64,000 nucleotides of DNA from Pomacea canaliculata. Its lineage: Eukaryota > Mollusca > Gastropoda > Architaenioglossa > Ampullariidae. The DNA is taken from the NCBI RefSeq assembly GCF_003073045.1, contig NC_037590.1, positions 1,762,016 through 1,826,015 on the forward strand, given 5' to 3'. The notes beneath the pieces were generated by a model. The model saw nothing but the letters and a program-made list of their open reading frames with translations. It was not told the DNA's origin and did not search any database. A program made the translations under genes and the position numbers. Below are positions 11,001 through 39,757 of the stretch, one piece after another. The first letter of the stretch is position 1; every line of letters begins with the position of its first letter.

Positions 11001-14000
11001 TCATATCTCCAGCAGCTCAATCTTTCGGGGATTGTTTGTTTGTTTGTCTCCTAACTTTTTGTTTATTTTGAAAAAGAAGCGATAGATAAAGCTAACAAGA
11101 ATATGGTCATTACGTTCGTCTGTCTGCCTGTATTCTTCCATCAACCTCGTCATGAATGTATATAAAATGTACGCTCGTGTTTCAACAGCTGCTACTCGCG
11201 CGTGGGGATGGTTGGCGGCACACAGGAAGTGGGTCTGGCTGCTGGATGCCGTGTGGTGAGTCTCCCTCTCTCCCTCCCATACACCTACCCACACACTCAC
11301 CCACCCACACACTCACCCACCCACCCTGGTGTTGTCTCCTTCAGCTCGTGACGTCATCATCCAATCAGCAGACGACAGCGTGTCAGCCGCTCCACAAGCT
11401 AATGAGAGCAGTTATCACATTCCTGATGTCAGCGCCAACTAATTGCATCTCGGTGTCTCACAGTACACCACGTGACATGCAGAACTACAGGCACGATTTG
11501 TACTGGGACATATTGGACAACATGAGGACAGAATTAGCATAACTTAGCATAATTAGCATAACAGCTTAATTAGCATAACTTAGCATAATTAGATGGCTGA
11601 ACCTTGTGCCACGGTGTGTCACATACTTGGTCGGAGAGTTGTGTGTCAGCTCTAATGCCAGCATATCTCCATCTTCGTGTTCATGAGAAAAAAAGCACGT
11701 GTCAACTTGAAAAATATTGTTTTTTTCAGCACAGAGAAATACAGCACGCGCGCGCACACACACACACAGACATGCAATACATTTCTCTCCATTTTCACTC
11801 CTTCTCTTCTCGTGTTTCTCGCTTCCTCCCTTCCTCCTTTCTCTCTCTCCCTCCAAATAGCATTTTTGTTTTTCCTGAGACTGCTTAGCTCTAGGTTTAG
11901 GTTATGTGTCTTGTGATTGTCTATCGACATACGTTACTCTGTGGTCACGTGGTTGCAGAAGAAGATCGTCATCCACGAGGTGGGCCACGCGCTGGGTTTG
12001 AACCACGAGCAGACGAGGCCCGACCGTGACACCTACGTGACTGTCGTCCGCGGCAACATCTCGCCCAGCATGTACTTCAACTTCCAGAAGTATACGTGGA
12101 CTGTCATCGAGAACTACAACATCCCCTACGACTACTACAGCATCATGCACTACGGCAAGACAGTGAGTGACCGGTGACTGGACGCACACACACAAACTCA
12201 CAAACACTCGCATACAAACTCGCTGACAGAGAACTACAGCGAGCATGAGAGAGAGAGAGGAATGAAGTAACACAGAGAGAAAACCATTTCAACATCATAA
12301 TAAAACCTTAAAGAATAAAACTGCAGAAAAGAGTACAGAGACACACTAATGCCACTAATGTAAATAGTACAGAGACACACTAATGCCACTAATGTAAATA
12401 GTACAGACACACTATTGCCACTAATGTAAATAGTACAGAGACACACTAATGCCACTAATGTAAATAGTACAGACACACTAATGCCACTAATGTATTTCCG
12501 CCTGCCAGGCATTCTCCATCAACGGCGGCATCACCATCAAAACCAGCGACGTGCAGTACCAGGACATCATCGGCAACCAGAACGGACTGAGTTTCCGGGA
12601 CATCAAGAACATGAACAAAATGTACCCGTGCGTCAAGGGTAGGCACACACCAACAGACGCACACGCAACACACACGTACAGATTTTTAAACAAGATTTTT
12701 AATGGTTCTTTTAAATAACAGGAATTTGAGATAATATCCTGACATAGCACATCGACTGGTGTGTATGGAAACATGCACTTTGGTGTCAAATCCTGTCATT
12801 TAGAATTGAGAATAAAATCCTGTCACTTAAATTATGTACACGCACACACTTCTCCAACATTCCCACTGGTGAGACTAGCACTAACGAACCACTCCTCTGT
12901 TCTCATGTCTTGAACCCTGTAGCCCCCAACTGCACCAGGCGGGACACCGACTGTCCAGGTGAGGGCTTTGTGGGCAAGGACTGCAGGTGCTGGTGTCCCG
13001 GCTCGCCCTACAAACTGTGCAACGGGACTGGCGGCACCGGCACTGGTCCTGGAGTGGGCGAGGTCACCGGTAGGATTTCATTCCTCTACAGCATGGTATT
13101 GAGTGACACGCTAGTCAATGTCCATGTTATTTAGTAAACCTGAGGACCACTCACAACACTATTTGCCGTAGGGTACTCAGGTCCGTTTCACATGTGGAAG
13201 GTCTTCGGTTCGACCCCCAGTAGAAACAGAGTCTTGGCTATTGTTTTTTTGTTCTACAATCTATTTTATTGTAAAAAAAAGTACTTGGATCGGAAGATAT
13301 AGGTTTATTGGAATAAATATTTTCTGTTTCTACTGTACATGTGTGGAAATGAATTCCCATTTGTAGAAATTTTTGTTGCAGCGTGTGTCGACCGCAACAA
13401 GCAGTGCGCCTCGTGGGCCGCCGCTGGGGAGTGCGAGAAGAACCCCGACTACATGCTGCCGTACTGCAAGAAGTCCTGCAACAAGTGCGCAGGTAAACCA
13501 CAACATCAACAGAAATAGCGATAGCTCTGACAAAGCTGACAAATGAACTGGATCAGATAATAGAAGCAAGGACCGATGAAAGTAACAGCACAGATAAATA
13601 TCAGACGACTGACAGTCTAGTCTTTTCTTGTCCTCCTCAAAACATATGTGTGTGTGAGAGAGAGAAGGGGGGAGTTGTGTATTCTTGCGCGAACTTGACA
13701 GAGAGTAAAATCAAGTGAGTGCAAATCATGAGCACAAGGGAGACTACTATCTACTACTGATGTACAGGATCGTCTCAAAACAAGACTGGCCTCCCCCAGT
13801 GCCAGGACCTTGACACATCCGGGAGCTGCGGCGTGTGGGCCTCTCAGGGGGAGTGTGTCGTGAACCCCGACTACATGTTGGTGTACTGCAAGAGGTCCTG
13901 CAGCGTGTGCACAGGATCCTCCACGGCGCCGCCGCCGCCAGCCTGTCAGGACCTGGACACTTCCGGTAATTGCGCCGCCTGGGCTAGACAAGGGGAGTGC

Positions 14001-14201
14001 ACTCGCAACCCCAACTACATGCTGTCGCACTGCAAGCTGTCCTGCCAGGTGTGTGGACCGGTGTCCTCTCGGTTGTCCGCCTGTCAGGACCAGGACACCA
14101 GCGGCAACTGCGCCACCTGGGCTCAACTAGGGGAGTGCACCTCCAATCCGCGCTACATGAGGCTTTACTGCGCGAGGTCGTGTAACGCATGCACTGGATA
14201 A
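2002..14201 (+). CDS. Secreted astacin-family (M12A) metalloprotease with four ShK domains, 11 exons
   Basis: Exons: 2002-2034, 2252-2327, 8577-8679, 9306-9415, 10513-10633, 11189-11255, 11959-12162, 12509-12638, 12923-13069, 13382-13492, 13768-14201. All junctions are GT/AG, all phases agree, and the sum is 1536 nt (511 aa). Residues 1-20 look like a signal peptide, followed by a propeptide to about 90. The catalytic domain (about 91-281) opens with RRWTDRVVPYEI. It has the zinc motif HEVGHALGLNHEQTRPDRD at 176-194 with the three His and catalytic Glu177, and the Met-turn SIMHY near 231-235. A Cys-rich linker (282-330) follows, then four ShK six-Cys modules, one in exon 10 and three in exon 11. 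Astacins are extracellular zinc endopeptidases that digest matrix or process ligands; ShK tails are common in invertebrate members. No frame defect is seen. The least certain part is exon 1 (11 codons), chosen because it supplies a hydrophobic start in phase. Confidence 0.9.
3367..4339 (-). CDS. Putative coiled-coil protein, three-exon gene model nested antisense in astacin intron 2
   Basis: Exons on the minus strand are 4339-4277, 4134-4071 and 3815-3367. All have GT/AG junctions with matching phases and give about 189 aa from an ATG at 4333. The first coding part has QCYKKWRNK, reminiscent of a Myb/SANT or trihelix end. The middle is acidic. The C-terminal 100 residues are a Lys/Glu-rich heptad-like coil ending KNLEKQLKDM. 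I do not recognise the family. An ORF at 4634-4386 and a start-like segment at 5366-5160 could be upstream exons, but the frame just before the chosen ATG has a TGA. It may be a host gene or a Harbinger-type accessory Myb protein left by a transposon; no transposase is visible. Confidence 0.4.
4386..4634 (-). CDS. Possible upstream exon of the antisense coiled-coil gene
   Basis: An 82-codon minus-strand frame, moderately basic, with a Lys-rich segment (SLVKKNTEKKVQELQ). A donor-like AAG/GTAGTA lies within it near 4440. Its frame does not join cleanly to the next exon at 4339, so it may be untranslated, belong to another isoform, or be spurious. No domain recognised. Confidence 0.2.
   Translation of the reverse strand: MVHSVRYVCYAAWYQNSNVKKLISLVKKNTEKKVQELQIARDFWNKRMWIHFTLSAPAGDRKVVGGNHSSFKKLLAENIVCI
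5160..5366 (-). pseudogene. Start-like segment MADPARVRKSSRSKSEE with one in-frame TGA
   Basis: Reading from an ATG near 5366 on the minus strand gives a basic, Ser-rich N-terminus of 32 codons. A TGA follows, and then the same frame stays open through MDTKREKQAMKDVVSM to a possible donor near 5122. The context suggests the original 5' coding exon of the antisense gene at 3367-4339, now interrupted. It could also be a separate relic. Confidence 0.25.
5570..8379. mobile_element. Non-autonomous hAT-like DNA transposon, 2810 bp
   Basis: The left end is CAGGGCCGGCGCTAGG. The right end, read inward on the other strand, is CAGGCCCGGTTCTACC, so the terminal 9 bp match with one mismatch. Exact 8-bp target-site duplications CCTGCGCA lie at 5562-5569 and 8380-8387. 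Both terminal regions also carry the word GCGCCCTAGGC. An 8-bp duplication and CAGGG-type ends are typical of hAT elements. No transposase frame is recognisable inside, so it was probably mobilised in trans. It sits wholly within astacin intron 2. The perfect duplications suggest a fairly recent insertion. Confidence 0.85.
7900..8222. repeat. Direct duplication inside the hAT-like element
   Basis: A segment of about 110 bp at 7900-8012 recurs with divergence at 8107-8222. Shared words include GTTAGCTG, GTGCGCCCTG, ATAATG and CTACAAGC followed by GAGGAAAAG. The two copies are separated by a C-rich tract. Confidence 0.7.
8657..8781 (+). repeat. 44-bp tandem triplication spanning the exon 3 splice donor
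   Basis: Three copies begin at 8657, 8701 and 8745 with one internal base change (GCC/GCT). Each contains the last 23 bases of astacin exon 3 and the donor ATGTAAGTATAAAC. The first donor (GT at 8680) joins in phase to exon 4. The other two are identical in sequence. Confidence 0.95.
9654..9726 (+). tRNA. tRNA-Val (anticodon AAC)
   Basis: A 73-nt intact cloverleaf with GTTTCCG / CGGAAAC acceptor arms, box A TAGTGTAGTGG, anticodon loop CTAACAC and B box GGTTCGAGCCC. A run of T follows immediately as the Pol III terminator. It sits in the sense orientation in astacin intron 4. Confidence 0.95.
10199..10236 (+). repeat. (TCG/TCA)n trinucleotide microsatellite
   Basis: About twelve near-perfect trinucleotides, mostly TCG, within astacin intron 4 between the two tRNA genes. 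The open frames across it (poly-Asp on the opposite strand) are artefacts. Confidence 0.9.
10340..10412 (+). tRNA. tRNA-Val (anticodon CAC)
   Basis: A 73-nt intact cloverleaf with the same arms and box A as the neighbouring AAC gene. The anticodon loop is TTCACAC (CAC, Val) and the B box is GGTTCAAACCC. CTTTTG within 13 nt can serve as terminator. It lies 614 bp after the AAC gene in the same astacin intron and orientation, which suggests a local duplication followed by anticodon change. Confidence 0.95.
11531..11592 (+). repeat. AT-rich short tandem repeat (TTAGCATAA core)
   Basis: Five to six imperfect copies of AATTAGCATAACTTAGCAT-like units in astacin intron 6. Confidence 0.8.
12331..12495 (+). 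repeat. 34-bp minisatellite in astacin intron 7
   Basis: About five copies of a unit built from ACAGAGACACACTAATGCC plus CTAATGTAAATAGT, some missing GAG. It ends 13 bp before the acceptor of exon 8, so it occupies the branch-point region. Confidence 0.9.
13161..13228 (+). pseudogene. Degenerate tRNA-Val(CAC) copy
   Basis: A 68-nt stretch aligns to the CAC gene at 10340. The anticodon arm (TTTCACATG), GGAAGGTC, a B box-like GGTTCGACCCC and a 3' AGAAACA end are retained. The acceptor stem no longer pairs and the D arm has lost about five bases with box A. It lies in astacin intron 9. Confidence 0.75.
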
Positions 14202-16120: not shown

Positions 16121-17062
16121 TTAGCGGATGACGTAAACAAAGCCCTGCTGACTCTGGGCGTTGCTGGCGGTGTGGTCGTTGCGGGAACACCCGGCGGCGT
16201 CAGCGCGCGTCAGCAAACGGTCCTCCGCCATCTTCATGTTGGTGGTGGGCGCGAAGTACATGGTGCGGCCGCTGTGGTAGGCGTGGGAGCTCTCATATTT
16301 GTACTCCCCACACCGTCTGCCCACATCGTTGGTGGCGCCCACACGGAGCAGAGTGTTCCTCGCCATCATCTTGTGGAGCTGGGCTTGAGTTCGTTGTTGT
16401 GTCCTCATGGTTCTCACTTGTTACAGACTGTGGAGGACGAGTTGTATAAATTATCTCATCTCGCGAACAATCACACAAAATAGTACACACACGCCTATAT
16501 ATACATAGCACATCCATACACACATACACACACTTAAGATTCCTTAAAGGAATATTACAAATATTATTTAGCTGGTGCGATTGGAAATAAAAATAGATTG
16601 TTTGTCCGAAGTTTCCTGATCACAAACAGACCCACTAACCCACCAGATCCACAGAAATGCAGACTGGCACGTGTGGCGTTTATTTACAATAATCCTTGTC
16701 ATCTGTCAACAAAGGACACAGAGAGCTGTGTGTTTGTGTGTGTGTGTGAATGTAGAGAGTGGGGACAGGAAGGCATGTAGAGAAATACACATGTAATGCA
16801 TGTAACAGCGATAATATGAATGCAAATGATTATTTGTTTTCATGGCATTTCAACCCTTCTTTTCCAGAAAAGCTGAACTCTGCATCACATATTGTTAATG
16901 TGTTAAAATGAGAGTAGGAGACGGACATCACACACCAGTGAATGAAGAGTACTTGGACTGTAAACCGTCCTTACCTTTCCTTGCGACTGGACTGTATTGT
17001 TGATATGAGTTGAGCTGTAGGTAGCCTCCCTCTGTGGCTGCCAGGTGTGTCTCTGGCTTTTA
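16121..17062 (-). CDS. Small permuted GIY-YIG-like protein A (95 aa); coding 16408-16121
   Basis: The minus-strand coding frame 16408-16121 gives 95 aa and is intact. A TATA-like TTTAAAAG at 17066-17057, a non-coding exon ending at 16975 (donor GTAAGG) and an acceptor at 16428 complete a two-exon gene. The protein has LRVGATNDVGRRCGEY at 21-36, MYFAPTTN followed by AEDRLL in the middle, and GFVYVIR at the C-terminus. These resemble the YIG strand with its Thr and Arg, the helix with catalytic Glu, and the GIY strand of GIY-YIG nucleases, but in the order 2-3-1. There is no signal peptide or membrane segment. The function is unknown; nuclease fold and permutation are inference from motifs only. 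Paralogues lie at 19123, 22899 and 29180. Confidence 0.7.
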
Positions 17063-17216
17063 AAGCCTGACAGCCGTCAGTCAAGTCTGTGGACCTCACG
17101 ATACCCGACTGTAGAGCTCGTCACACCATCCTCCGGGTCTCCCCGTTCCTCAGAAGCCACGCCCTCTTTCTCATGATTCGATGTTTACTGAGAAATGATT
17201 GGTTAATAGAAAGCAG

Positions 17217-17390
17217 CCTCGACACTTTCCTTTCTGTGAGAGAGAGAGGGAGAAGGAGCGCTCGCCAGCTAGAAAACGATTTTTCTGAGAAAAGACCAGT
17301 AAATAGCAAGAAGCTCGACACTTTCCTTTCTGCATGAGAGAGGGAGAGAGAGCCCACACCAGCTAAAAACCATTTTTCTGAGAAACGCAC
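17217..17390 (-). repeat. Two tandem ~93-bp units in the upstream region of gene A
   Basis: Each unit contains CGACACTTTCCTTTCTG, a GA-rich run and CCAGCTA followed by a TTTTTCTGAGAAA box. The unit recurs once upstream of gene B (20600-20660). Confidence 0.75.
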
Positions 17391-17402
17391 AGTTCTAGGG
17401 AA
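17283..17402 (-). promoter_or_regulatory. TTCN3-4GAA (STAT/GAS-like) sites upstream of gene A
   Basis: TTCTGAGAA at 17283-17291 and 17376-17384, and TTCTAGGGAA at 17393-17402, lie 220-340 bp upstream of the TATA box of gene A. TTCN3GAA and TTCN4GAA are STAT consensus forms. A related block upstream of gene B keeps TTCGCAGGAA (20673-20682), and TTCTGAGAA recurs at 25028-25036 on the gene D side. Function is inferred from motif and placement only. Confidence 0.4.
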
Positions 17403-17643
17403 GCAGCCTGCTGAGCTACACACTATTTTTTTCTTTGTCCCGCTCTTTGTCTTCCTACCCCCCATCTTTCATTCTCCTCTCTCCCTATCTATATGAATGA
17501 TTTGTTTCAAGGCTATGGATCTTGAATAGTTCAATTTAAGACATACATAAAGATAACCGTAAAAAGTTAATGATCAACATTCAAATATCAGTCCACACGT
17601 CCTTTGCTTTGTTAATCCACTAAGTATGCAGATCAGGCTAATT
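17334..17643 (-). repeat. Conserved upstream block, copy 1 (gene A)
   Basis: About 310 bp align with 20603-20923 upstream of gene B at roughly 90% or better. The right-hand 165 bp (from CTATCTATATGAATG to GGCTAAT) differ at about ten places. Both blocks have the same orientation relative to their minus-strand gene. Confidence 0.9.
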
Positions 17644-17939
17644 AAAATAACGAGTTCAAAATTGAAAAAAGTGTGAATGGCAAGTGTTTGTGTTATTGTG
17701 TGCGGTTTTCTACTCTGGTGCATGTGTAGCTGTCTGAATCCGGTAGAATGGGTAGATGATAATTATGTATGTGTGTTTTTGTGCAGTCATCGTCTGCTGT
17801 CTCACCCGTCTAAAGGTTACATTCTCTCATCGATAAGTGTTGTCTGTAACACTTCACTGGGGCTGTTTGAGCATCACAGCCGTTAGGTGTCAATTGATAA
17901 CAGGATGAGTCACGTGTTAATTAATTCAAGGCTTCTAGT

Positions 17940-18110
17940 AAGGCTAAATTCTTTGGGGTCCCAGGGACCCCTTCTTCAGATTTTTAAGGGGTCACTGTTC
18001 TTCGCCCAAATTTGAAGGGGACCCCATTGACGACAATTGAAGGAGTCCTCCAAACTTTTAATGCGTACTGTTCGCAATTTTTTGCGTAAGCAGAAGCCCT
18101 GTTAATTAAT
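17940..18110. repeat. Short palindromic interspersed repeat (candidate)
   Basis: Contains the inverted pair GGGGTCCC / GGGACCCC around 17957-17975 and further GGGGTC/GACCCC words. It looks like a small MITE-like or retroposed fragment, but ends and target duplication are not clear. Confidence 0.3.
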
Positions 18111-18284
18111 AACACGGCAACTGCAGCTGACAACATTTTCCTCGAGGAGGAGAAGCTGGTGCCTTGGGGTTAGTAGGGTTGCACCCTACTCCCTGACACT
18201 GGGGTTGATATCATGAAGAGGGCAGAGGGTTGACTACTACCTGAGCTGTTGATAAACAAACCCCCAAATACCTCCATCCCTCCC

Positions 18285-18675
18285 CAACACACACACACAC
18301 ATTACACACACAACCCCCCCCCCACACACACACACACACACAACCCACACACACAGACAAATCACACCCAAACACACACAACCCACACACACACACACAT
18401 ACAATACACACACATGCAATACACACACACAACCCCTCCCACACACACACATACAACACACACATACATGCAATACACACACACAGCCGACCACACACAC
18501 ATACAATACACACACATACAATACACACACAACCCCCTCCCATACACACACACACACAACCCACACACACATACAATACACACACACAACTCACACCCGA
18601 ACACACACAATCCACACACATACAATACACACACACAACTCACACACACATACAATACACACACAACACACACAA
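18285..18675 (+). repeat. Compound (CA)n low-complexity tract
   Basis: About 390 bp of ACACAC interrupted by ACCC, ATACA and ATGCA words, followed by a T-rich run to 18718. Long open frames on both strands here are repeat artefacts. Confidence 0.95.
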
Positions 18676-18841
18676 TACTCTTTCTTTCTTTGTTTTCTCT
18701 TTTTTTTTTTTTTTTTTCACATCACATCACCATGAGGGTGATGTCGTACAGATGTCAATGAACGAGTTTAAGTTCGGGTCCCTCTCACTCATTTCTTTAC
18801 TCATTCTCTAAAACTAGGCAAAATAGGACTGTTTCATGAAG

Positions 18842-20518
18842 TTTATTTCCAGAATTTGATGCAACAATGGTTTTAACTTCATTATTTTTTAGGCTTGAAA
18901 TACGCTGAGTACAAAGAAAGACAAATGACAGATGAAGTCTTATTCTGAGTGTTTACTGTGTGCACAAAAGTTACACATTTAGTAGGAATCTACTTATTTA
19001 AGAATTATTTATAGATATCCAGGATATTGTTTACAAGTTTTGTAATCGTGTCGGATTCCATGTTACAGTGAACGAAGAAAAGCTAAGAGTCGTTTATCAG
19101 CGCCATTGGTAAGACACGGAGTTTACAGGATGACATAAACATATCCTGGAGCTTCCGTATTGTTGCTGACATGTTGATCATTTTCAGGGCATGCCCCGAA
19201 TTGTTGGCATTTCTGGAGCAGCCTGGTTTCTTGCCACTTCATGTTCTGGGTGTCCGCATACAGCATCCAGCGATGATTGTATACTTGAGGATTTTCACGA
19301 CAGTACTGAGACTGTCGGTTCTGCAGGTCGACCGTAGAGCCCACCCGTATCGCGAGCTTCATCACGATCAGGTACTCTAAAAAATCGGTAGACACTTTCT
19401 GGGAATTCATTTTCTGGAAAAAGATAGTGATTTGAAATTATGTCTCTTTCTTTCTTTCTCTTCTTTTCTCTCTTTATTTCTCTCTTTCTCCCTTTCGCTC
19501 CCTCCTTCTCTTTCTTTTTCTTTCTCTGTTTTCTCTCTTTCTTTCTCTCGCTCTCGCTCGTTCGCTTTCTCACTTTCTCTCACTCTCTCTTTCTTTCTCC
19601 CTCTTTTTCTCTCTCTCTCTCTTTCTATTTCTCTCTTTCTATTTCTCTCTTTCTCTCTCTTCCTCATACAGTCTATTTTTGTCTGCAGTACAGACACATT
19701 ATCAAAAACCCTGTCATCTAATTATAATATTCAAAGAAGAATTCAATAATAGACCTCCTTTACTTTCATTCGCAAACAAATATGTCTTTTCATGGTTAGT
19801 GTCATTTAATTTAAACCTGACGGATAGTCTGTTGTAACTACTACACCAGCTAAGCTGATAGCTGGTGGTAGATGAAAAACCCACAACAACGGGTAGTTGA
19901 GATTGGGTGACTAACTTCCAACACTATTAAGTCTACAAAACACTTTCCAAAGAAGGCACGAAACAGATTAAAATCGCTTCTATAGCAAATATAAGAAAGC
20001 AAAGTTTTAAGCCACACGAAATAAGTGACAGCATCGTAAGAGGTAAATATGGAGTAGAAACGTGACCGATGATTTTTTTCCACTCAAGTATCGAAAACCG
20101 GTTACAAAAATGGACATTGTTCATGTCAGGCACAAACCATAAAACAGTACCAATACAAGATTGAAATGTTACCACAGTCTTTACAACCTGTCTCGTGATC
20201 ACTCTACTCACAATACACAGCTTAAAGCACATTCAAACATTCATCCCCCAAAGTCTCTTGCGCAAAACAATTTTTAAAATTTGCTTTCATCTCAAATAGT
20301 TTAGTTGAAAAGTATGTAATTTATTAAGTGCGTCCTCAAGTTGAAAAATCTTTGAGTCATTAATAAATTGAAATAATCTTACCTTGTAAAACAAGCGTGT
20401 AGACGAGTGCCTATGTAACCCAGTGGACAGTGGTAGGGTGTTGTATGATGTGAGATGTGAACTCTCTCCCAGTCACCCGGCGAGACGCATGACTACCCTT
20501 GTGACCTCCTCCTTTATA
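18842..20518 (-). CDS. Small permuted GIY-YIG-like protein B (95 aa); coding 19410-19123
   Basis: The minus-strand frame 19410-19123 gives 95 aa and is intact. The gene has a TATA box (TATAAA at 20518-20513), a non-coding exon of about 100 nt ending at 20383 with donor GTAAGA, an intron of about 970 bp, an acceptor at 19414, and a poly(A) signal AATAAA at 18847-18842. The protein has IRVGSTVDLQNRQSQY near 21-37, WMLYADTQNMK with QETRLLQKC, CPENDQHVSN, and GYVYVIL at the end. Invariant positions match proteins A, C and D. It is closest to D. The same GIY-YIG-like reading in permuted order applies; biochemical function is not known. The intron ends in a long purine-rich tract on this strand. 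Confidence 0.7.
19437..19668 (+). repeat. Polypyrimidine (CTTT/CTCT)n tract
   Basis: About 230 bp of almost pure C/T on +, purine-only on the transcribed strand of gene B, ending about 25 bp before its coding-exon acceptor. Open frames on both strands are compositional. Confidence 0.95.
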
Positions 20519-20602
20519 CACACCTCCTATGACTCAGCTACCTGCTTCATTCATCGCTGTTAACCAATGGCTGCCGAACACGCGTTTGGCGCCGAGGAGG
20601 AA

Positions 20603-20923
20603 GAGAGGGAGAGAGAGGGAGGTAAAGAGAGACCACACCAGCTAAAAAACGATTTTTCTGAAAAATGCAAAGTTCGCAGGAAGCAGCCTGCTGGGGTCCA
20701 CAATATTTTTTTCTTTGTCCCGTTCCTTGTCTTCCTACCCTCCACCTTTCCTTCTCCCGTCTCTCTCTATCTATATGAATGATTTGTTTCAAGACTCTGG
20801 ATCTTGAATAGTTCAATTTAAAGACATACATAAAAATGACCGTAAAAAAGTTAATGATCAACATTCAAATATCAGTCCACACGTGCTTTGCTTTGTTAAC
20901 CCACTAAGTATGCAGATCCGGCT
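20603..20923 (-). repeat. Conserved upstream block, copy 2 (gene B)
   Basis: Homologous to 17334-17643. It keeps TTCGCAGGAA at 20673-20682 while the TTCTGAGAA site has become TTCTGAAAA (20656-20664). It lies about 90-400 bp upstream of the TATA box of gene B. Confidence 0.9.
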
Positions 20924-21109
20924 AATATAAGAAAGCAATAATAAAGCGATAATATTATATCATTTAATCTCAGCAAAGGGCAAGGAGATTTTTTTAAATG
21001 AAAGAAAATTTAATAAATGAAAAGGAGAAAGTCAATTCTATATTACAAATGGTGGTAGAGTAATCAAAACATGCTTTTATTCACCTCGCCCTTTGTGAAG
21101 GAAGAATAA

Positions 21110-21860
21110 GCAAAGTAGTTAACGAATTACTAAAAAAAATAAATAGTAATCATAAAATATGTCATCAAAAGAGAGCGCAAGATGAATATGTACAAAACTA
21201 GTGGTTAGAACAGATATTTACAATGGTCCTAGAGTCGGGAAGTATCTCTCAGACTTGATTTTAAGAAGGTCTACTCAAGGAATAGGAATATTAAGTTCAA
21301 AGAAGTTCTAGTGTTATTGTAGGAAAATAGGAAAGTTAGTCTGGGAGACAGTATACCAGTAAGTATTTTATAAATGAAAATACATTTGTTGAATTTTAGT
21401 CTGTTGGTTAGGGAAAGGACGCACAAAGAGGTGAAATCATTTGACTGTGTTTTTGGTTTTAGTAAAACTACTGAATTTCTCGCATTTCAACAGTTGCTAG
21501 AGGTTTTATGGAACCTCCCACTTGCAGAGTACCAGAGGGTGGAGGTGCAGTCAAGGGTCGACTGAATATGAGTTGTATAAAAGAGTTTTCTCGCGTGAGG
21601 GTCTAGGAAAAGTTTGATTCTTGACAGCTTGAAGGTTTTTGTGTCAGAGATGTGGTGACTGTACTTCCAATATTTACTGAGTGCCGATAAGATACTTGGA
21701 AATAGGGTGGTTAAGTTTCTTTTTCTGTTTGGTTGTTAGAAGCAGACTTCAGTTTTCTGGAGGTTGAGTGACATGTGGTTTGAATCAGTCCAAGCCTGAA
21801 GCTCTTCGGTGCTCAGTTGTAGGAGGGAAGCAGGAGGCTCAGTCTGTTGTTGGGGTGGTA
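21110..21860 (-). mobile_element. Degenerate LINE fragment (RT C-terminal part and 3' end)
   Basis: Minus-strand frames read like the tail of a CR1/Jockey-type reverse transcriptase: LQAWTDSNHMSLNLQKTE from about 21800, then a later segment with LTNRLKFNKCIFIYKILTG near 21410-21370. Several stops and frame changes are present. The 3' half (about 21190-21480) is homologous to 57990-58450. Confidence 0.6.
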
Positions 21861-22260
21861 ATAATATCTTTCCTTTCTTTGACGGATAACCAGTGAGGTG
21901 GATGCAAAAGTGGGTTTTGCTGCATAGCTAGATAGATGGAGATGGACACACTGACGGTCATTCATAAATAAGGAGTCAATTGTATAAAAAGTACCCATCT
22001 AATCATACTAGTGACAATGTATCCTCGTGCGCGAGAAAAGTATATCCTTAAAGTGACCAGTATTAACCTATCCTCCCCTCCACCTCCTACACACTTTATA
22101 ATTGCAACTCTTACACAGTAACAGGTGTATCATTCGTATTGTGCAATCCATTTTCTTAACGAAAGTAGCGAGGGTGTGACTCCAGGAATCGAGATAGGAA
22201 ATGTAGGTCAATGGAATATTCACAGAGTGAATAGATTACTGGGAATTCTTAGTCGGCGAG
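21861..22260. other. Spacer between LINE fragment and gene C promoter
   Basis: No gene or repeat recognised. The right end is the promoter-proximal flank of gene C. Confidence 0.3.
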
Positions 22261-23514
22261 TATAAAAGAAATGTTGAGTTGAGATACAGGTGAAACAACC
22301 TGACGACGCGAGACGAGGGAGTGAGCTCGGCAGGTCTGCGACACACAAGAAGCTATTGCACTCGGACAATCTTCGGACTCTTGTTGCTAGGTAAGAACGA
22401 ATTTTTGATGACAAATAAGACAATTTTCTTTCCATTACAGGATATAAAGTACAAGATAATAAATAAGCTGCTGAATATGACAACTCTCTATCAAGAGGAA
22501 AATTATCATGAGGAAAGACTTTGTTGAGCCACTAATGGGGTAGAGCATGCAGAGCACTTAAGTGAATTTTATTTTTTACCATCAATCTGTGTGTGTGGGT
22601 TTTTTTTATCAGCTAGATTTTAAGAAAAGTTATAGGTTGTATATAATGAATGAAAGAAGGGGGAAACAACAAAAAATGGATATTAATGGATGATGCATTC
22701 CATTTAAGAAAAGAATTCATGAAACGAGAGATGATAATCGAGTTCAACAATTACCTGCACGCGCTACAAGAGTTTAGTGTGTGTGAGACTGGATGTGCGG
22801 TCAGGAGGGAGGAAGTGAAGCAGAAAGACGCCAATAAACAGCGGATGAGTTGAATTTTATTTTTGACATTTCAGTTTTGTTTCAGCGAAAACATTTCAAT
22901 GCGTACAGAAAAGACAAGACAAGCCGAGCTGAAACTAATGATCAGGAGGAAAGCTGTCCTGCGCGTGGGCTCTACTGATGACGTGGAGAGTCGATGAGCC
23001 GCGTACGAGAATGAAAATGCTTATGCATATCACAGCAACCGCTGCATGTTTTATGCTCCGACTACAAACAAACAGAGGGCTGAAAACAAGTTGTTGAACC
23101 TGTGCGTGAAAAAGAAGAACTGCAGTAGGAATGACCAAATGCAAAGCAACGCACAACCCACACCAGGGTGGGTCTACGCCATTGTGTGAGCAGATGACTG
23201 CCATTGCTACCAGTCTTCTTGTGGTTTCTGACACAAGTCCACCACAAACCCCTCGAATACCTTGTAATTCGTGTAGCCTTCCTTTCGTACGGTTTCAATA
23301 TAAAATGAAGTCATCATGAATGTATTTACTACCTTAACATTTATAAAAGCTTTAAATGCAAGAGATATGTTCACCATTAGTGTATGCTATATTCGTACAA
23401 ATTAAACAATCCCTAATACAATCGTTGAAAACAAATGATTGTTTGTTTAGTGAAAATGAAATGAGAAGTCAACAACAGAAAAATTGGTCGTCAATAACTT
23501 TTTGATAAAATAAA
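22261..23514 (+). CDS. Small permuted GIY-YIG-like protein C; coding 22899-23189 with in-frame TGA at codon 33
   Basis: TATA box TATAAAAG at 22261-22268, a non-coding exon ending at 22390 (donor GTAAGA), an acceptor at 22884-22885, and a frame 22899-23189 of 96 codons plus stop. A poly(A) signal AATAAA is at 23509-23514. The frame is open throughout except for TGA at codon 33 (22995-22997), the position of Cys33 in paralogue A. Flanking motifs are kept: LRVGSTDDVESR before it, then MFYAPTTN, AENKLLN and GWVYAIV at the end. Either this copy carries one nonsense change, or the TGA is read through or recoded. I see no clear SECIS element in the 3' flank. The rest of the frame shows no decay. Confidence 0.6.
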
Positions 23515-23694
23515 TCAATATTCGCTGATGCTTTTATGAAGCCATTTCTTTGTCTATGCGATGTTGTGTGTGTGTGATTGTGTGTGTGTACGCTGCACTA
23601 CAAAGACTCACGAAACCTTGCCGTAGATGTCTCAAGTGTAGACGAGTTCTCAGACAAGTCTAAACCCTAAAACTGTTCTGTTGTTTCCTATATA

Positions 23695-24526
23695 CAGTGG
23701 AACCTCGGTTAGCGAACGCCTCGGATAGCGAATATTTCGGTTAACGAACAAAAATTTCGTTAAAAATTTGTCTCGGATAGCGAACAAAATTTCGGATAAC
23801 AAACAGCCACATGAACCACACGTGACCGACCAGCATGTCATCATTCGCGCTCGAGACACAGTTATGATCGGTCGTTCCTTATCTATGCGCATCCTTCTTA
23901 TTTAGTGATTGTTGTGCTTTATTTTAATAAGATAATCCTCAATCGTGGCTCCAAAGAAGATTAAGAGCAATTAATAGTAGTGAGGTAATGACAAGGAAGC
24001 GGCCAACAAATGAATTGAAAAAGGAAATGATTTCAAAGTATGAAGGTGGCATGCGTCTGTCGGATCTGTGATGTCGTCTTACTGAAGAGTTTTACAAAAA
24101 GGCAGAAGGAACAGAAACTGGACAAGTTTTTTCTTTAACCTCAAAGCTACAGAAAAGGGAAGTCACCCCCGATTTTATAATGTCACGTGTGCTCATGGAG
24201 GGGGAATCAAAGCAGTACTTCCACCCCTTCCTCCCCACACCTCCATCCACTCACGTCGTCAAGACGACGAGTTTTCTGATGTTAAATGCTTTCGTTAATG
24301 TTTTTATGTTTATTTAACTCCATTTATATTGCATTATAACTGTTCTCATTAAAACAAATACCTTTATAGCCTGTAACTTTCAAATATTAGCGAGTCAACA
24401 GGGACTGGGAACCAATTAAATCTATTTCCTTTATTTCTTATGGAAAACATTGTTTCGGATAACGAACATTTCGGATAACGAACAGCTTTCCAGAACGGAT
24501 TCAGTTCGTTAACCGAGGTTCCACTG
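23695..24526 (+). mobile_element. pogo/Tigger-type Tc1-mariner element, 832 bp, internally deleted
   Basis: Inverted ends CAGTGGAACCTCGGTTA are flanked by TA duplications (23693-23694, 24527-24528). Subterminal repeats of TTCGGATAACGAAC occur at both ends. Inside, near 23945-24071, are remnants of a CENP-B-like N-terminal transposase domain (MTRKRPTNELKKEMISKYEG) with stops; the catalytic DDE part is missing. These ends and TA duplication identify the pogo/Tigger group. Confidence 0.9.
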
Positions 24527-24926
24527 TACCTGAGAAATTGTTTTGTTAATTACTGCACCGTCATCGTCTGATGTTTCCTCTCTCACGGGTTTCACGATTA
24601 CATTGTAGTTGTTATCGAGAAATAATTTGTCTACAACTAGAGGTCACGTGATAACAGCAGGGGTCATCCTTTGGAAAAATAAATAGCAGTTATATTCATC
24701 TCTTGGACACAAAGACTGTCGTCGCTGACGAGACATTTTGGAGAGAAGAAAATGATCACTGTCACGAATGCGAGTGTTGCCTGCTGCCTCAACACCTGTC
24801 TCTCAAATTACTTACCAAAAAAGTACGACAGATTGTAAAAATACCTGACAAAACTTGGTGGTTTAAGGGTAAAGCCTGATTCGTTGACGATCTCACTTCT
24901 TTGGACGACCGTGTAGTTGTGGAGAG

Positions 24927-25040
24927 CCAGTTTTGAGAAAACGAGTTATTCTAGAAGTATATAATAAACACAAACTGAAACTGTTCTACATCTATGGAGG
25001 GGCGTCATGAATACCTAGAAAACGAATTTCTGAGAAATGC
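24927..25040 (+). promoter_or_regulatory. Heat-shock-element-like and GAS-like sites
   Basis: TTCTAGAA at 24949-24956 fits the inverted GAA pair of a heat-shock element and is followed by TATATAATA. TTCTGAGAA at 25028-25036 lies in AAACGAATTTCTGAGAAATG, the same context as the upstream boxes of genes A and B. This may mark the promoter side of gene D, but a TATA box and first exon for D were not found with confidence. Confidence 0.3.
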
Positions 25041-26349
25041 TCAACACACAGCAAAACTGCTTTTCTTGACACAGTGTGTTTGATTGCTCTTTCTTTTCTC
25101 ATTCTCTCCCACTCTCTCCTACTTTCTTCCTCTCCCTCCCTCACTTGAACGAACTGGCTTTAATGCTGTCTGCAAGTCATAAATATTTTATTAGAATATA
25201 GATATAATAAGCGTGTGGAAACTATCCGCGAAAAACGTTATTTTCTAACATTCACCAATTTTCCTCCACCTTTCGTTACCCTGGAAACAAACATCTAGTG
25301 GAGACCTAGACACTGACGGCCTGTTGGGATTCACCTGCACAGAGCTGTAGTCGGCCTCCTGTAGCTTTCCGCGTCTGACAGCGGGAATACCCGCCGCTAT
25401 TTTTAGACGTGACGAAAACCCGATGGTCGTCTCCGAAGTGTCACCTACTTATTTAGCAACTCATTGCCTCAGTGTGAGGTATCTAATTCTGTTGTAGTCG
25501 AGGTGCAGGTGTGAGGCAGCGATCTCTCACCTTGCTGTGTTTGCGTGGATACCAGCGGAGACAAAGAATAAGGAAATAAACAAAGATCAATGATCTTATA
25601 CTTCACATAGGCAATAGTGTTCAAACTGTTCCTATCATGGACAGACATGCACAGCGTTTTGTATGTTTAACCAGTGCTTGTATTTGTGGGCATTTGATTT
25701 TATAACCTTTTATTAAAAAAATTCTGGAAGAAATATTTTGTGTAATGTAGCACTACTTGTTCATTCCTTACATCATCATCCATGCACTTAGTTCATGTTT
25801 TTCAGAGTGTCATCAGTTTGTGAAGCTTATGATTCAAGAAATTTTTTTTCACCCATTCAAAGGTATTGAGATATTCAAAATATACATATATTCACATGCA
25901 TTACTGTATATCTTCTATGCAATCTACGTCATTCACACACATTCACTACTCAGTTTGAAACACAATAGACAACAGTGGGGGACACTGTCAGCTGCCGCGT
26001 CTTTCCCTGTGATCCCCCCAACCACAGGTGGGGTCACGTGACTGACTGTTGATCTACTGCGCGGCGGACTTCAAGTGCTTGCTTCCCTCTTGTATCTGTG
26101 TTATGACCTTTCAGGAATTAGTGGATTTATTTTTTTCATCTATGACCACAGAAATGCTACGTTTGTCACATTCTAGTATGACATGATGGCTATTTGACTG
26201 GGTGCTGCAAAGTTAGAACATTTCATCAGAAGATGTTTTATTGAAAAATGCAGTTTTACCTTTGACAAAGCACAGCCACCTTTTACCTCTTTTACTTTAG
26301 TTTGATCGCTCTGTTCATTTTGTACGGTTAATTAAACGATAGAATCCTG

Positions 26350-29300
26350 CGAGCTGAAGGTAAAATTAGACAGTTTGTTTTATAATCTTCTCTTAGTTCC
26401 TCACTTCTCTACCTTTATGCCTCGCTGCCTACCCTTCTGTCTCTGTCTCTCTGTCTCTGTTTGTGTGTGTGTGTCTGAAGTAATTTAAACGATAATGAGA
26501 AACACCACTTAGAAAATCGTCACATTATCCTCTTTACCAAATTACTAAAATAGAATGCTTTGCGATATTAAAAGTTATTGTTTATCACACATATCGTATT
26601 GTTTATCACACATGTATCTCAATTGAGAATAATGTTTGTATGTGCTTCAAGCTGTGTATTGTGACTAGCACAAACGGAAAAGGTTGCAAAGCACAGAGTT
26701 ACATATGGACTGTACATATCAACATGTTGACTGTTCACACAAACAGCTTTATTACTAAAAATTATTTTCAAGGAAATGCTCACTGTTGGTACAAACACGA
26801 TTAATAAAAAATAAAGGAAATACGAAGGCGGCCTTTGTGTTGTTTTTAGCAGTATAGTAAAAACAAAATACTCTCCAGGCTTGAAATATTGTCTGAGAAA
26901 CTGGATACTGAGTGAGGCTTACACGATGGGAGAGAAAAAGACTACTGTTAATATATATTGCTGATTTGGTTAACTGTTTTACTTCACCACCACTCCTTCC
27001 GTTAATGAAGTTTGAGTTGGAATTCTTTGTCTTTCTCACTCACGCACGCATGAAGAACTAAAGACAGTGGAGACACAGAGGTAACGGAAACTAACGACGA
27101 CGATAGAAGTAAAATAATAATCACCAAAGGATATCAATCAACAGGACAGACTACAAGAGATGTAAAAGGCGGGAGGGGGACAGGTTAGTAGCGGACTTGT
27201 TGAGGAGCAGTGTTCACGGACAAGATGTGTTTTCAAGCTCGTTTAAAAGAGTCGATGGTGGGTACATGGGGGATACTACAGGGAGGAGAGCTTCACTGCT
27301 TTGTTGCATCATAGCTTTGAAAAACCCGATGATCTTGATGAACCTTGCCAGAAGGAAGACAAACGAGATGGCGGATGGCACTAATCTTACGGAGCTCGTA
27401 GTGAGCAGACTATCTGCAATCTCTTTGTCTGATGTCAGCAGTGACGATGAAGCCAAGATTCCTCACAGACGACAGGAAGATAACATCGGCCTCACCAGCA
27501 TTTAACGGTGTTGTGTGTTGTGCAGTGCCATAGACGAAAGTTACTTTTGTCGTTTCCTGACGAGAAGAGCTTGTGTTTTCTCCTAGGTGCGTTACATCAA
27601 CGATGTCGATAAGTTTCATACTTAAAGTAAAAATAATCGTTTACATCTTTCTACTCCCCTGTATGTAACCCTGTGTGCTTCTCTCCTGCAATTCTGTCAG
27701 ATTTTTCGTATGGGTCCAAAACATTGCTTTGTTATATTTGTTATACCGTCGGTATAGTCTGTTCTGCTTTGTTTTGTGCTTTCTTGGGTAAGTGTTTTGT
27801 GGACTTTGTTCTGCCAGCTGGACTTTTCTCAGAAATACTGCTTTGTTTTTTTGGGGGTGCTTGTTTGTTTGTTTGTTTGTTTGTTTGTTTGTTTGTTTGT
27901 TTGTTTGTTTCATTTGTGCATCGCTATGGGCTGATTTATAGACAAAGTACCTGTAAACTCCGAATCAAACTGATATAATGTGACAAAGATAGATATGTTA
28001 TAATGGAGACACATTAGTCCAGTCCAGCATGGCTTGTAAAGCTGGATACAGGTGGTAAAGTAAAGATATCATCGAAAGTAGTTGTTGCCATGCGATGCTT
28101 GCATAAATAAAGGGACTCGAGCCGTCCAGTCGACATGATATATTAGATATATTTGATATATTTGACGGTATATTTTTAAATGCCTGCCAATCTCTTGTAC
28201 AGGTGCCACCCGGATAGAGAAAGTGGCGCCACCCAGGGCCGCTAGACACCCGGCACCAACATGACCACCAGTGCCAAGACAAGCCACAAACACAGATGCG
28301 AGGTGCACGCAGATCATAATGTAAGCTTCTGATGCACGTGATATTATCATGTGGAGGATTCGTCAGATGATAATAATTCATGTCAGGTTATCATGGGATT
28401 TAGCGAACACATTTTACTGGTTAACAGGAAAAATAAGGAAATTTCTAATTTATGGCGGACTTCCCTTTATCTGCCCCCGGAATGTAATCTGTATGTTAAT
28501 TTATAGGGTTTGGGACAAAGCTGTTTAATAGCATTTGCATGCATATCACGATGTGCGCATCTTCTGCCTCATTATCGATGATCCACCCGTTGATTGTGGT
28601 GCCGGTTGACGACCACCTGTACTGTTCCGTCTGTACCCGTAATGGGAGATCAGGGGAGGGGATGATGGATGGATGCAGCGGCCTACAAGGCTAACCACTG
28701 TAGCAACTGTCACCTGTGGCCTTGTGTTCACTGGACCATTCAGTGACATTGTTAGAGTTCTTGTCACGTGCGCTCACAGCACCTGAACAGTTACGGATTC
28801 TCATTTTGTTAACCACAAAATCTGTTTTTGAACATCTGGTGGGATGTAGATGGGGCCACCTCTAAAACTAACTTCTGCACCAAATTTGATTTACTAAGCT
28901 TTATGCAATTACTGATGTTTTTAAGTTTTAAAAAAAGGTGAAATTTTGGTATAGCAATTTATGTGTATGTGCCACCACATCTATTATTTATCTTTCCATT
29001 CATGGAACGAAAACGATCCTGTACTTGAAGTCGATGCAACCAATCTCTTGTGGTCATCTTAAGGTGTGTGTAACTTGATGAACTGGTGGGTTTGGGGAAA
29101 ATACAATTATGTGTCTATAAAATAAATGAATTCTATCATCGAATTTTTCTTTGAACATTATAATACTTTATTCCAGAAAAGGAATATCCAGAAAGTGTGT
29201 CTTGGTTTTCTGGAATACCTGATCGAGAAGCAGCATGTGTTACGGGTGGGCTCTACCCACGACCCCGAGCGGCGACACGCCGACTACTGCCACAAGGAAC

Positions 29301-29797
29301 CTGAAAAATACAATCAACACTGGATGCTGTATGCTGACACCCAGAACATGAAGAGGCAAGAAACCAGGCTGCTTCAGAAATGCCAAGAATGTGGGACATG
29401 CCCTCTAAATTATCAACATGTCAGCAATCAAAGTGAAGATAAAGGATATGTTTATGTCTTCATGTAAACTCCGTGTCTTACGAGTGCCACTAGCCTGATA
29501 AACGATCTTAGCTTTGCTTCATTCACTGTAACACTGAATCCGACACGATTAAACCTTGAAAAGAATATTTTGGACATTTATAAATATTTTTAGTAGATTC
29601 CTACTTAAGGTGTAAGTTTTGTGCACACACACACACAAAAACCGCTCAGAATAAGAAAGTAAAAAAATTAACCTTTAACTCCTATCGGGACTTCATCTCT
29701 ATCACTTGTCCCTCTTTGTGCTCAGTGTAATCCATAGAAAACAAGTCTGAGGTATGATGAAGTTAGCATTAAGGTTGTATCAAGTCACGGAAATAAA
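26350..29797 (+). pseudogene. Small permuted GIY-YIG-like protein D; coding exon 29177-29467, ATG replaced by AGG
   Basis: The coding exon after the acceptor at 29175-29176 aligns codon for codon with gene B: 95 codons plus stop at 29465-29467, no stop or frame change. The initiator is AGG (29180-29182). Motifs LRVGSTHDPERRHADY, WMLYADTQNMK, QETRLLQKC and GYVYVFM are all intact. Upstream, 26630-26700 and 27690-27830 match the intron of gene B, and a donor-like AAG/GTAAAA lies near 26357. Downstream, the 3' flank to AATAAA (29792-29797) also matches gene B. So this is an inverted segmental duplicate. Loss of the start codon argues for a pseudogene, but the undamaged frame leaves room for an upstream or non-AUG start. 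Confidence 0.55.
27860..27912 (+). repeat. (GTTT)n microsatellite
   Basis: About twelve perfect GTTT units inside the intron of gene D. Confidence 0.95.
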
Positions 29798-31178: not shown

Positions 31179-33366
31179 TGGTCAGTTTGATTGATGGATT
31201 GACGGAAACAAGTGCACTGAAGGAATTAGAGAATCTTCGTCAAATTATTATCTTATGTTTACTAATAAGATGCATGTGTATGTTTGTATATTTCAGCAAG
31301 GCAAAAAAAAATCAGCTGTTCGAAAAGATAAACAAATATTATTTAATGCTATTACTATGTTAATTAATAATTTTAATTTATTCGATTTACCTTGAAGCCA
31401 TACACTAAACCTTTGCTATGAACACAAACGCGGTGAGTCTTCTGTCTCTCCACCCTCCTCTTGTTCTCTCTTCTTTCTGACATCCAGGTAAGCAGCACCG
31501 CGCCAGGTACTTTCTCCGCCAACCTTACCATGCCGGTGATGGCTTCATTAAAGTTTTGCATTTGTATTTTCCTTCTGTGAGCCTGTGAAACATCATGTTT
31601 AAACGGTTAAACAGCATAATGTGTGTGCTGGTCATCAGCATGCATGAGATGATGTAGTTAATGGATGTCAGCTGATTGATTCGCGTGTGGAAGTGAATAA
31701 TTATGCAGAAAACGACTGACAGAGGGCAGTAATCATCATGAAACATTTTTTTTTTTTGTTTGTTCATTTAGCTCCTCAAATGAAATGCGAAGACAATAAT
31801 TATAACCAGTACATCACAGTAAAATTACTTGTCTAATCACCAATTCGTGGTCTGTGGCCTTCTATTACTCCTCTGACTACAGTAATGACAACAATGCCAC
31901 ATCTTGTTCATTCAATGGAAATCTAGGGAGTAAGCACCTCTAGTGAACACTTGTCTCGCACACACTCCACGCTCTCCTTTACTTGTACACACAGGTACAC
32001 ACTCACAGACAAGCAAATGAACTGTATTCCTGAGAATAATTGAAGCATTGAGATTGTCATCTTCAATGTTTTAACCGTTTAGAACCACTCGGCGCTCACC
32101 TGCAGGTCCACCGTCAGTCGTACCTGACAACCTCATCATCACTACAGTCACCGGGGCTATCTTCTCACTTTATCTCAACATGCTCATCTTCTGTTTCAAT
32201 TCATCATCGTCCATCTGTTAGTTGATTTGACGGTAAATGTTTTAAATGGTCCATTTTGTTTAAGAGGGAGGGATTTTTCAACGCCTTGTCGCACATTCAC
32301 ATCCACACACGGTCTGCATGCAACCATCGAATTTAGAATCGCTTTCAAACACTACAAAGACAGTTAAAAATGTGTTTGTAGGGTGTGGACGTGTGCCTTA
32401 ATCAAAGTAAGGAAACCACAAGGCCTCATTATGCTATGACAGTAGATTGAACTTTGTTTCCCGTGTAATCATACGCGCGCGCACGTGTACACACAGTAAT
32501 GGCGCCATTGAAATCACACGTGAAACCAAAAGCAAAGTACACACACGCGGATGATTACTTTTTAGCAGAACAATAAAACCAGGGTTAAAATGCAGGCTTA
32601 TTCAACACACAGCTAACTGAATGTTTGCTGCTAATATACAATTTCATGTTTGTGATGAGCTTAAAGCAACAGGAAATTAGTTGTTTGCGGTCGATCTAGC
32701 ATGAATTATTATTCTCTCTCTCTCACACACACACATACACAAAACAAACACACACAATTTTGTTAAATTTACAAAACACTTTGCTTTAATGAAAATATCA
32801 GTTACCCAGACACTCGCTCAGGCTGTTAGAGAATTTTCTACTGAAAGTGGATATTGGTGGTCTGTTCTAGAGAAAAGGGTGGACGTGGGGGTAGCCCACC
32901 CCCTTACCTCCTACATTTCAACATCTATAAATTTAAAAGATTGGTTTGCTTTAGTAATTCCAGGACACACACTGGTTTGGACATGGTGATCTGTGGAATT
33001 CTCACTCGCACGGCTGACAGGCAGGACAGCCTCGAAAGCTCGCACTGATGACTAGTTCTTCGCAGCCAGGACATCTCGGGAGTCAGGCACCCACACCTGC
33101 CTCAGCTGGGAGAGGTGACCTGTGGCACCCGGGTATCGAAACAACTGTCACACACATTCAGGTTCGGCTGCGTTTCTCTAACCACTAGGTGTGTATAGTA
33201 GTCAGGATTCAGGCAGAAAAACGGACATAGATGTTGCTGTAGAAGGACCGGAATGTTGCAACTCCAGCTCAGCATGCACATGATGAACAAAATCTTGTAA
33301 ATGAAGTTCATGTCTTTCAGGTCTGCGTTTGCTCTTCAAACATAGATAGGTAATACCATTTGAAAA
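31179..33366. other. Intergenic stretch before the receptor array
   Basis: No gene recognised. A minus-strand frame at 31561-31373 has a donor-like ATG/GTAAGG near 31529 but no recognisable domain. Short CA-rich runs occur near 32480 and 32720. Confidence 0.3.
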
Positions 33367-39300: not shown

Positions 39301-39757
39301 CATCAATCCTAGCAACGATGACGGTCACGGCTACTCGTTCGGCGTCATCATCGTCCTTAACTTCGTCCTCTTTCTTGTCGTCGCCGTGGGCCAGGCTTTC
39401 ATCTTCTGGTCAGTCCGCACTAACACCATGTCGGCCTGCGACACTTCCAAGAAGAACAAGAACCTGACAGTCGCTCGTCGTCTCATTTCGGTAGCCGTCT
39501 GCAACTTTGTCTGTTGGTTTCCCATCGGTCTGCTGGGTCTGATGGCGTCCAGTGGCGTTGTGGTGTCAGAAGAGGTCAACGTAGCCATGGCGATTTTTGT
39601 CCTTCCCATCAACTCTGCTCTTAACCCGTTCCTGTACACTGTTAACCTGCTGCTGGAGCGCAGGAAGCGAGCGCAGGAGCTGCGTTTGATGGAAAAGATT
39701 AAACGTGACCTGCAGACTTCAGTCGTGTCCACCCGATACACCAGCAGCAAACGTTAG
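33367..39757 (+). CDS. GRL101/relaxin-receptor-like LGR, copy 1 (CUB-LDLa-CTLD-LRR-7TM)
   Basis: Exons 33367-34066, 35666-36375, 37031-37559, 37680-39757, all GT/AG, about 1338 aa. In order: signal peptide (cleaner from Met21, 33427), CUB-like 1 (to 233), CUB-like 2, LDLa, C-type lectin-like domain split over exons 2-3, four LDLa (with CDHRADCRDNSDEDFC and similar acidic calcium sites), Cys-rich LRR cap, about six LRRs, hinge ending CDNLLS, and 7TM (about 1025-1300). TM2 reads LSDFLMGVYL, TM3 STEVSAF to LDRF, TM7 NSALNPFLYT, as in RXFP/GRL101 receptors, which couple to G proteins at the plasma membrane; the ligand is unknown. Two frame breaks relative to its paralogues: one extra base near 36250 (lectin exon) and one missing base near 38932 (after TM1). 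Exons 1 and 3 are intact. Confidence 0.85.
34436..35216 (-). mobile_element. hAT element remnant, 781 bp, in intron 1 of receptor copy 1
   Basis: Ends CAGGGGTGTCAAACTC and, inverted, CAGGGGTGTCAAACAC, with perfect 8-bp duplications AGCTAAGA at 34428-34435 and 35217-35224. The minus strand (about 34815-34640) encodes the end of a hAT transposase dimerisation region: LFSVMKINKTSHRSRLTDAH and following residues to a natural stop, with one stop just before it. The rest of the transposase is missing. Confidence 0.9.

Follow-up and report, generated by a model that had tools for sequence, protein, structure and literature searches.

A 64,000-nucleotide stretch of the genome of the gastropod Pomacea canaliculata (contig NC_037590.1, positions 1,762,016 to 1,826,015; hereafter the window) carries four homologous frames of 95 or 96 codons, confirmed at 16408-16121, 19410-19123, 22899-23189 and 29180-29467. 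Their alignment has 23 invariant columns out of 96, and tblastn within the window linked all six copy pairs (E 3e-10 to 5e-36) and detected no fifth copy; these links, combined with the relatives found in databases, rule out a chance resemblance among the copies. The four loci are members of an uncatalogued family of stand-alone proteins of about 95 residues, and the order and conservation of the sequence elements make it likely that their domain, which takes up the whole protein, is a circularly permuted version of GIY-YIG, an ancient superfamily of nucleases that has the order of two motifs as its hallmark.

Structure and integrity of the four loci

Copy 1 (P0001, 16121..16408, minus strand) and copy 2 (P0002, 19123..19410, minus strand) are intact 95-residue paralogues that are open from ATG to stop. 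The ATG of copy 1 is preceded, at a distance of five codons, by an in-frame TAA, which supports the claim of a preliminary description of the window that the 95 residues, and hence the domain, are the whole protein. An acceptor-like CCTCCACAG stands just before this TAA, and an upstream AAAG/GTAAGG donor at 16975/16974 marks the candidate end of a first exon (16975..16978, minus strand); together, the TAA and the two splice-like signals fit a gene whose first exon is non-coding and whose coding sequence sits in a single exon. In copy 2, the acceptor-like TTTTTCCAG lies 3 bases before the ATG, and TTCCAG directly precedes AAA-ATG in copy 2 and AAA-AGG in copy 4. AATAAA occurs 275, 319 and 324 bases 3′ of copies 2, 3 and 4, respectively, and is absent from the 1200 bases 3′ of copy 1; both the splice sites and the AATAAA sites are signals read from the sequence.

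The other two copies are damaged. In copy 3 (22899..23189, plus strand), a 96-codon paralogue, codon 33 is an in-frame TGA (22995-22997), which also appeared in the assembly search, and copy 4 (P0003, 29180..29467, plus strand), which shares 62% identity with copy 2, has AGG in place of ATG, leaving copies 1 and 2 as the pair that is intact as read. An Arg instead of Met at the start position is also found in P0004, a near relative of copy 4 known as protein only. The four-member family of the preliminary description thus held as regards the loci, their coordinates, strands and homology, but not as regards the integrity of copies 3 and 4. By the NG86 method, copies 2 and 4 gave nonsynonymous/synonymous (dN/dS) values of 0.25/0.36, and the other five pairs gave dN of 0.43-0.75 with dS of 1.70-2.00 in three pairs and not computable in two; the coding sequences of the paralogues are likely under constraint, although this is weakly measured.

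An element of about 310 bases was also observed upstream of copies 1 and 2 (17336-17642 and 20611-20926, both on the minus strand; 89% identical), with a partial third copy of 59 bases at 17242-17300. It is a candidate repeat or shared regulatory stretch.

Element order and active-site positions

The wider family was compared in a 34-row alignment (A5) containing the four window copies, the archaeal protein P0008 and 29 further relatives. RVG-T, the following Arg and Tyr/His, a Glu, a Ser and the C-terminal G-x-V-Y are conserved across it, whereas the CxxN initially noticed in the window is not. The elements run from a YIG-like strand through the Glu helix to a C-terminal GIY-like strand in 33 of the 34 rows, the remaining one (P0026) being incomplete there. 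A GIY-then-YIG hairpin in native chain order, by which the superfamily is defined, does not occur in the family; because this defining order is missing, the family is not a canonical member and is best filed as a permuted variant. The order YIG, Glu, GIY had been read from the four copies as a permuted GIY-YIG, and this reading is supported both by the 33 rows and by the gain in hhalign score on rotation given below.

According to the available passages of PMC8287910, the active site of SLX1 consists of Tyr17 (GIY), Tyr29 (YIG), Arg39, His43 and Glu82; Tyr17, Arg39 and Glu82 are invariant in the superfamily, Tyr29 is highly conserved and is Lys in Hpy188I, and His43 is readily exchanged for Tyr. 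All five positions map onto the family. In copy 1 (positions on the minus strand), the YIG-strand equivalent is RVGAT (16331..16345), in a column range that hhalign pairs with the canonical YIG; its R22 occupies the second-Tyr position, and G24 and T26 are present in 34/34 rows. R32 (16313..16315), the putative counterpart of the catalytic helix Arg39, is conserved in 31/34 rows and lies ten residues after the YIG Tyr position. Y36 (16301..16303), the equivalent of His43, follows four residues later and is Tyr in 27, His in 6 and Leu in 1 of the rows; both spacings are the same as in SLX1 (PMC8287910, available passages). The Glu of the following helix, E62 (16223..16225), would correspond to the metal-binding Glu82 and is present in all 34 rows. 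The C-terminal GIY-strand equivalent is GFVYVIR (16124..16144), where G89 is invariant (34/34) and Y92 occurs, at the permuted place, in 32/34 rows, with one Phe and one incomplete row. The preliminary description had made its proposal depend on the conservation of Tyr, Arg and Glu, and these counts, with Tyr or His at position 36 in 33/34 rows, uphold it.

The second-Tyr (YIG) position is Arg in 30/34 rows and Tyr in 4/34. The Tyr-type members (P0024, P0025, P0027 and P0028) look the most canonical: P0027 reads YVGATDDPHRRRTEH in the YIG half, and YAGITKDPERRCGEH of P0028 aligns with YTGITTDVERRYQQH of Escherichia coli YhbQ, the two proteins sharing 48% identity over 25 residues (pairwise E 1e-5). 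As judged by sequence, a textbook YIG half is present in these divergent members. The prevalence of Arg makes it a real alternative that the proteins have the permuted GIY-YIG fold but no catalysis, and only bind nucleic acid or a partner, all the more as the available passages of PMC13179284 report an animal GIY-YIG-like domain without nuclease activity, ANKLE2 Unc-1. On the other hand, the superfamily-invariant GIY Tyr, Arg and Glu are retained in 32, 31 and 34 of the 34 rows, four members retain the second Tyr, and the Lys that Hpy188I has at this position (PMC8287910, available passages) means that activity is not necessarily lost with a basic residue there. We regard the loss of catalysis as a substantial possibility, though one that we would not expect, and the family members would probably be nucleases.

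Profile comparisons and predicted structures

Searched in native order against Pfam, copies 1 and 2 matched nothing, and copies 3 and 4 matched T5orf172 (E 0.057 and 0.088) from profile positions 15 and 13, that is, beginning after the GIY strand; copy 3 also touched DUF7732 (E 0.037) and MUG113 (E 0.15). When copies 1, 2 and 4 were rotated so that the C-terminal strand came first (copy 3 was left out), all three matched T5orf172 with the alignment starting at position 1 or 2 of the profile (E 0.012-0.048, or 0.0049-0.043 without the N-terminal extension). Two T5 stretches examined for T5orf172 itself did not show it by name and were left out of the comparison. The corresponding T5orf172 (PF10544) scores were 12.9-14.4 bits native and 14.6-17.8 bits rotated, below the gathering score of 20. 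Across the 34 rows, with E up to 10, T5orf172 and GIY-YIG were the Pfam families matched by most members, and rotation raised their matches from 12/34 to 17/34 and from 6/34 to 9/34, respectively. The profile check of native against permuted order, which the preliminary description had proposed, therefore came out in favour of permutation in the number of matches, but not in scores above the cut-off or in the best E values.

For a profile-profile comparison, the canonical profile was built from 13 proteins of the UPF0213 type, one being E. coli YhbQ and the other twelve retrieved regions, and the family side from 31 of the 34 rows (P0004, P0026 and P0030 dropped). In native order, the hhalign score was 31.6 for a 20-column alignment that begins beyond GIY; rotation gave 36.0 over 27 columns including GIY, and 38.5 when the new N-terminus was omitted. 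In a scan of rotation points in 3-column steps, the score stayed at about 31.6 while the C-terminal strand remained behind, rose to 35.2-36.1 for the tested cuts placing this strand ahead of an intact YIG-helix part, and decreased for cuts within that part. Shuffling the tail columns 300 times gave a mean of 31.7, with 36.0 reached once, and for the shortened version a mean of 31.3, with 38.5 reached once. Coverage in global hhalign alignment was 19 columns native and 72 rotated. Single-sequence hidden Markov model (HMM) scores were mostly low and the gain small: the sum was 147.0 in native and 151.0 in rotated order, 19/34 members improving, and 141.8 (s.d. 2.2, maximum 147.2 in 100) for rotated sequences with shuffled tails.

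These alignments also bear on a simpler history without permutation, in which a GIY-YIG remnant lost its GIY strand, the N-terminal strand replaced it and the C-terminal G-x-V-Y was an unrelated addition. Such a remnant would agree with the native-order matches, which, where their ranges are known, cover the YIG half onward only, and with the N-terminal strand seen in the predicted models (E2-5 and E3-7). However, L11 is the one near-invariant residue of the N-terminal strand and helix, where neither a Gly nor a Tyr is conserved; this strand is not recognised by the canonical profile in native order; and it is the C-terminal strand, with its invariant Gly and near-invariant Tyr, that aligns to GIY once moved. 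We therefore consider a remnant unlikely.

The permuted arrangement agrees with the confident AlphaFold2 models of copy 2 (predicted local distance difference test, pLDDT, 92; predicted template modelling score, pTM, 0.83) and P0028 (pLDDT 95, pTM 0.85), both of which have the predicted secondary structure strand-helix-strand-helix-strand-helix-strand, with a strand at the C-terminal GIY-like place. The second structure alignment comprised 32 rows, without copy 3 and P0030 and with P0007 standing for P0008. In Foldseek searches against viral models, a GIY-YIG protein of Yasminevirus ranked second (E 0.023) in one case and first (E 0.018) in the other. It is very improbable that the proteins have an alpha/beta fold unrelated to GIY-YIG, such as an L7Ae/L30e-like one, in which RVG-T arose by chance. 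Rows from VIA-align, which re-aligned Foldseek's own list, did not include GIY-YIG, and L30e/L7Ae structure matches were set aside as noise.

Besides the Arg at the second-Tyr position, several results weigh against a permuted GIY-YIG domain. Scored individually, the window copies reached no curated Pfam cut-off, either in native order or, for copies 1, 2 and 4, when rotated, and the best E values did not improve on rotation (0.0038 native and 0.0043 rotated for T5orf172; 0.00067 and 0.00076 for GIY-YIG). The rotated archaeal protein matched no Pfam family, and matches to phrog_5032 fell from 9/34 to 7/34. In sequence searches of the PDB, a weak SLX1 match present in native order was lost on rotation: profile A5 (native) hit STN1 (E 0.35) and SLX1 (E 0.78), and profile A6 (rotated) hit STN1 (E 0.27) and no SLX1; profile A1 hit leucyl-tRNA synthetase (E 0.057). 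Order-dependent structure searches of the PDB gave no GIY-YIG match (the plain Foldseek PDB search covered copy 2 only). On the whole, permutation is supported in that it survives the sequence tests, with individual scores that are modest.

Relatives, possible function and genomic surroundings

New beyond the preliminary description are 30 database relatives, including rotifer and archaeal metagenome-assembled genome (MAG) sequences. Successive searches yielded three close relatives, then six with the archaeal locus added, and then 29, two of which are named Brachionus calyciflorus (rotifer); no precomputed Pfam domain is shown for any of these 29 or for P0008, the archaeal protein. The scan of contigs from bacterial and archaeal genomes found a single locus, which lies in a MAG of Candidatus Sigynarchaeota (kingdom Promethearchaeati). 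Its protein, P0008 (L001:2974-3297), has a stretch 39% identical to query residues 5-94 (E 9e-11 among candidates) and ends in GKIYVIK. The gene opens a stretch of low G+C (54% ahead of it, then 36 and 31% in the two kb that follow) that looks as if newly acquired, and its neighbours are a GNAT gene and a radical-SAM gene. The archaeal protein is listed from four sources, and MAG contigs can be misassigned. The family tree, built from 32/34 rows (P0026 and P0030 dropped), has weak deep support and fixes neither the archaeal placement nor the direction of any transfer.

Catalogued systems and viral sequences added little. PADLOC matched 0/34 members, and in NCBIfam eight families were each matched by a single member, at a best E of 0.029. 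Among PHROGs, phrog_5032 (function unknown) was weakly matched in native order by 9/34 members (best E 0.0033) and may be a related phage family. Viral contig scans with A2, P0009, P0010, P0031 and P0029 returned 0 relatives each, and E. coli YhbQ as query found no relatives there either. With tblastn, P0009 matched nothing in phages and plasmids and P0029 nothing in phages; P0031 hit three phage records, one of them a capsid-gene match at E 0.4. The viral-contig match L002 was rejected as a member, having by eye little in common beyond one eight-residue word.

Among known families, T5orf172 (PF10544) agrees in the relative order of its elements, from the YIG strand to the helix and strand after it, with the present family, which differs in carrying its GIY strand at the C-terminus rather than the N-terminus and in its individual scores under the gathering cut-off. 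The UPF0213/YhbQ-type stand-alone nucleases are similar in size (about 100 residues), with the domain as the whole protein, and YhbQ, named a DNA damage response nuclease in NC_000913.3, shares the YxGIT-D-ERR---H segment with P0028; the family differs from them in element order, in a second Tyr that is usually Arg, and in the added N-terminal strand and helix. SLX1/UvrC/ANKLE1 share the five catalytic positions, with the YIG-Arg-His spacing of SLX1 (PMC8287910, available passages), but differ in order, and SLX1 has a RING domain and UvrC further domains (PMC9071465, available passages), whereas the 95-residue chain has none. ANKLE2 Unc-1 is likewise an animal GIY-YIG-like fold, found by structure, but one reported to be without clear GIY/YIG motifs and activity, and permutation is not mentioned in the available passages of that paper (PMC13179284). 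The 2006 analysis of the GIY-YIG superfamily (PMC1564403) does not mention permutation, nor do the available passages of PMC3482391 mention a permuted GIY-YIG; those of PMC3846280, PMC5751168 and PMC1829167 concern other matters. In the titles and abstract openings of the non-subscription papers searched, no circularly permuted GIY-YIG/T5orf172 or Asgard nuclease domain was reported.

For such a permuted protein, the break in the chain would lie in the hairpin that links the GIY strand to the YIG strand, and the variable SN-bearing loop would connect the former ends. The order would then be a new N-terminal strand and helix, the YIG-like strand RVG-T, the helix with Arg and Tyr/His, a strand, the Glu helix, the loop, and the GIY-like strand G-x-V-Y. 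The conserved residue set implies a metal-dependent site of the GIY-YIG type, in which the Glu would hold a divalent metal ion as in GIY-YIG nucleases, the Arg and the Arg/Tyr/His residues could bind and orient phosphate and water, and the C-terminal Tyr would complete the active site. Because there is no extra DNA-binding domain, a site-specific nuclease is less likely than one that is general or selects for structure; the target may be a nucleic-acid structure, or the action general, rather than directed at a long sequence. We infer the active-site geometry, activity, substrate and biological role, and it is speculative to assign the proteins a part in DNA repair or in conflicts with mobile DNA. 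The full combination, namely an active permuted nuclease that is a complete 95-residue protein, has an Arg in the role of the second Tyr, was spread among mollusc, rotifer and a Promethearchaeati archaeon by horizontal transfer and forms a clustered gene family in the mollusc, is put forward tentatively, as slightly less than evenly probable. If the permutation is true, a natural rearrangement that retains the residues of the active site would reveal which connections are dispensable for fold and catalysis, would explain why Pfam and NCBIfam models miss a family present in animals and in an archaeal assembly, and would give animal genomes a further candidate for a minimal nuclease.

The window lies within a P. 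canaliculata assembly of 440 Mb in 24 contigs, which bears out the proposal that the family is host-encoded. A search of this assembly with copy 1 as the single query found six places, all on one contig, giving a genome copy number of at least six; the proposed local expansion is borne out by this clustering, but tempered by the damage to two of the four window copies. The two extra copies lie about 77-80 kb past the window end (L024, C1:1902810-1903043; L025, C1:1906469-1906705), and their matched parts keep the order of elements, reading (M/I)-R-I-G-(A/S)-T ... R ... Y ... E ... G-F-V-Y-V-I, with RIG, nearer the canonical YIG, in place of RVG.

Elsewhere in the window, three successive gene copies that we take by eye to be receptor-like occupy 33364-39757, 43489-48849 and 52393-57700, with presumably CUB/LDLa-like, leucine-rich and seven-transmembrane-like stretches in open frames. 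On the other side of the family, open frames at 11917-14201 contain what appears by eye to be an astacin-like HEVGHALGLNHEQTRP motif, followed by presumed ShK-like cysteine repeats.

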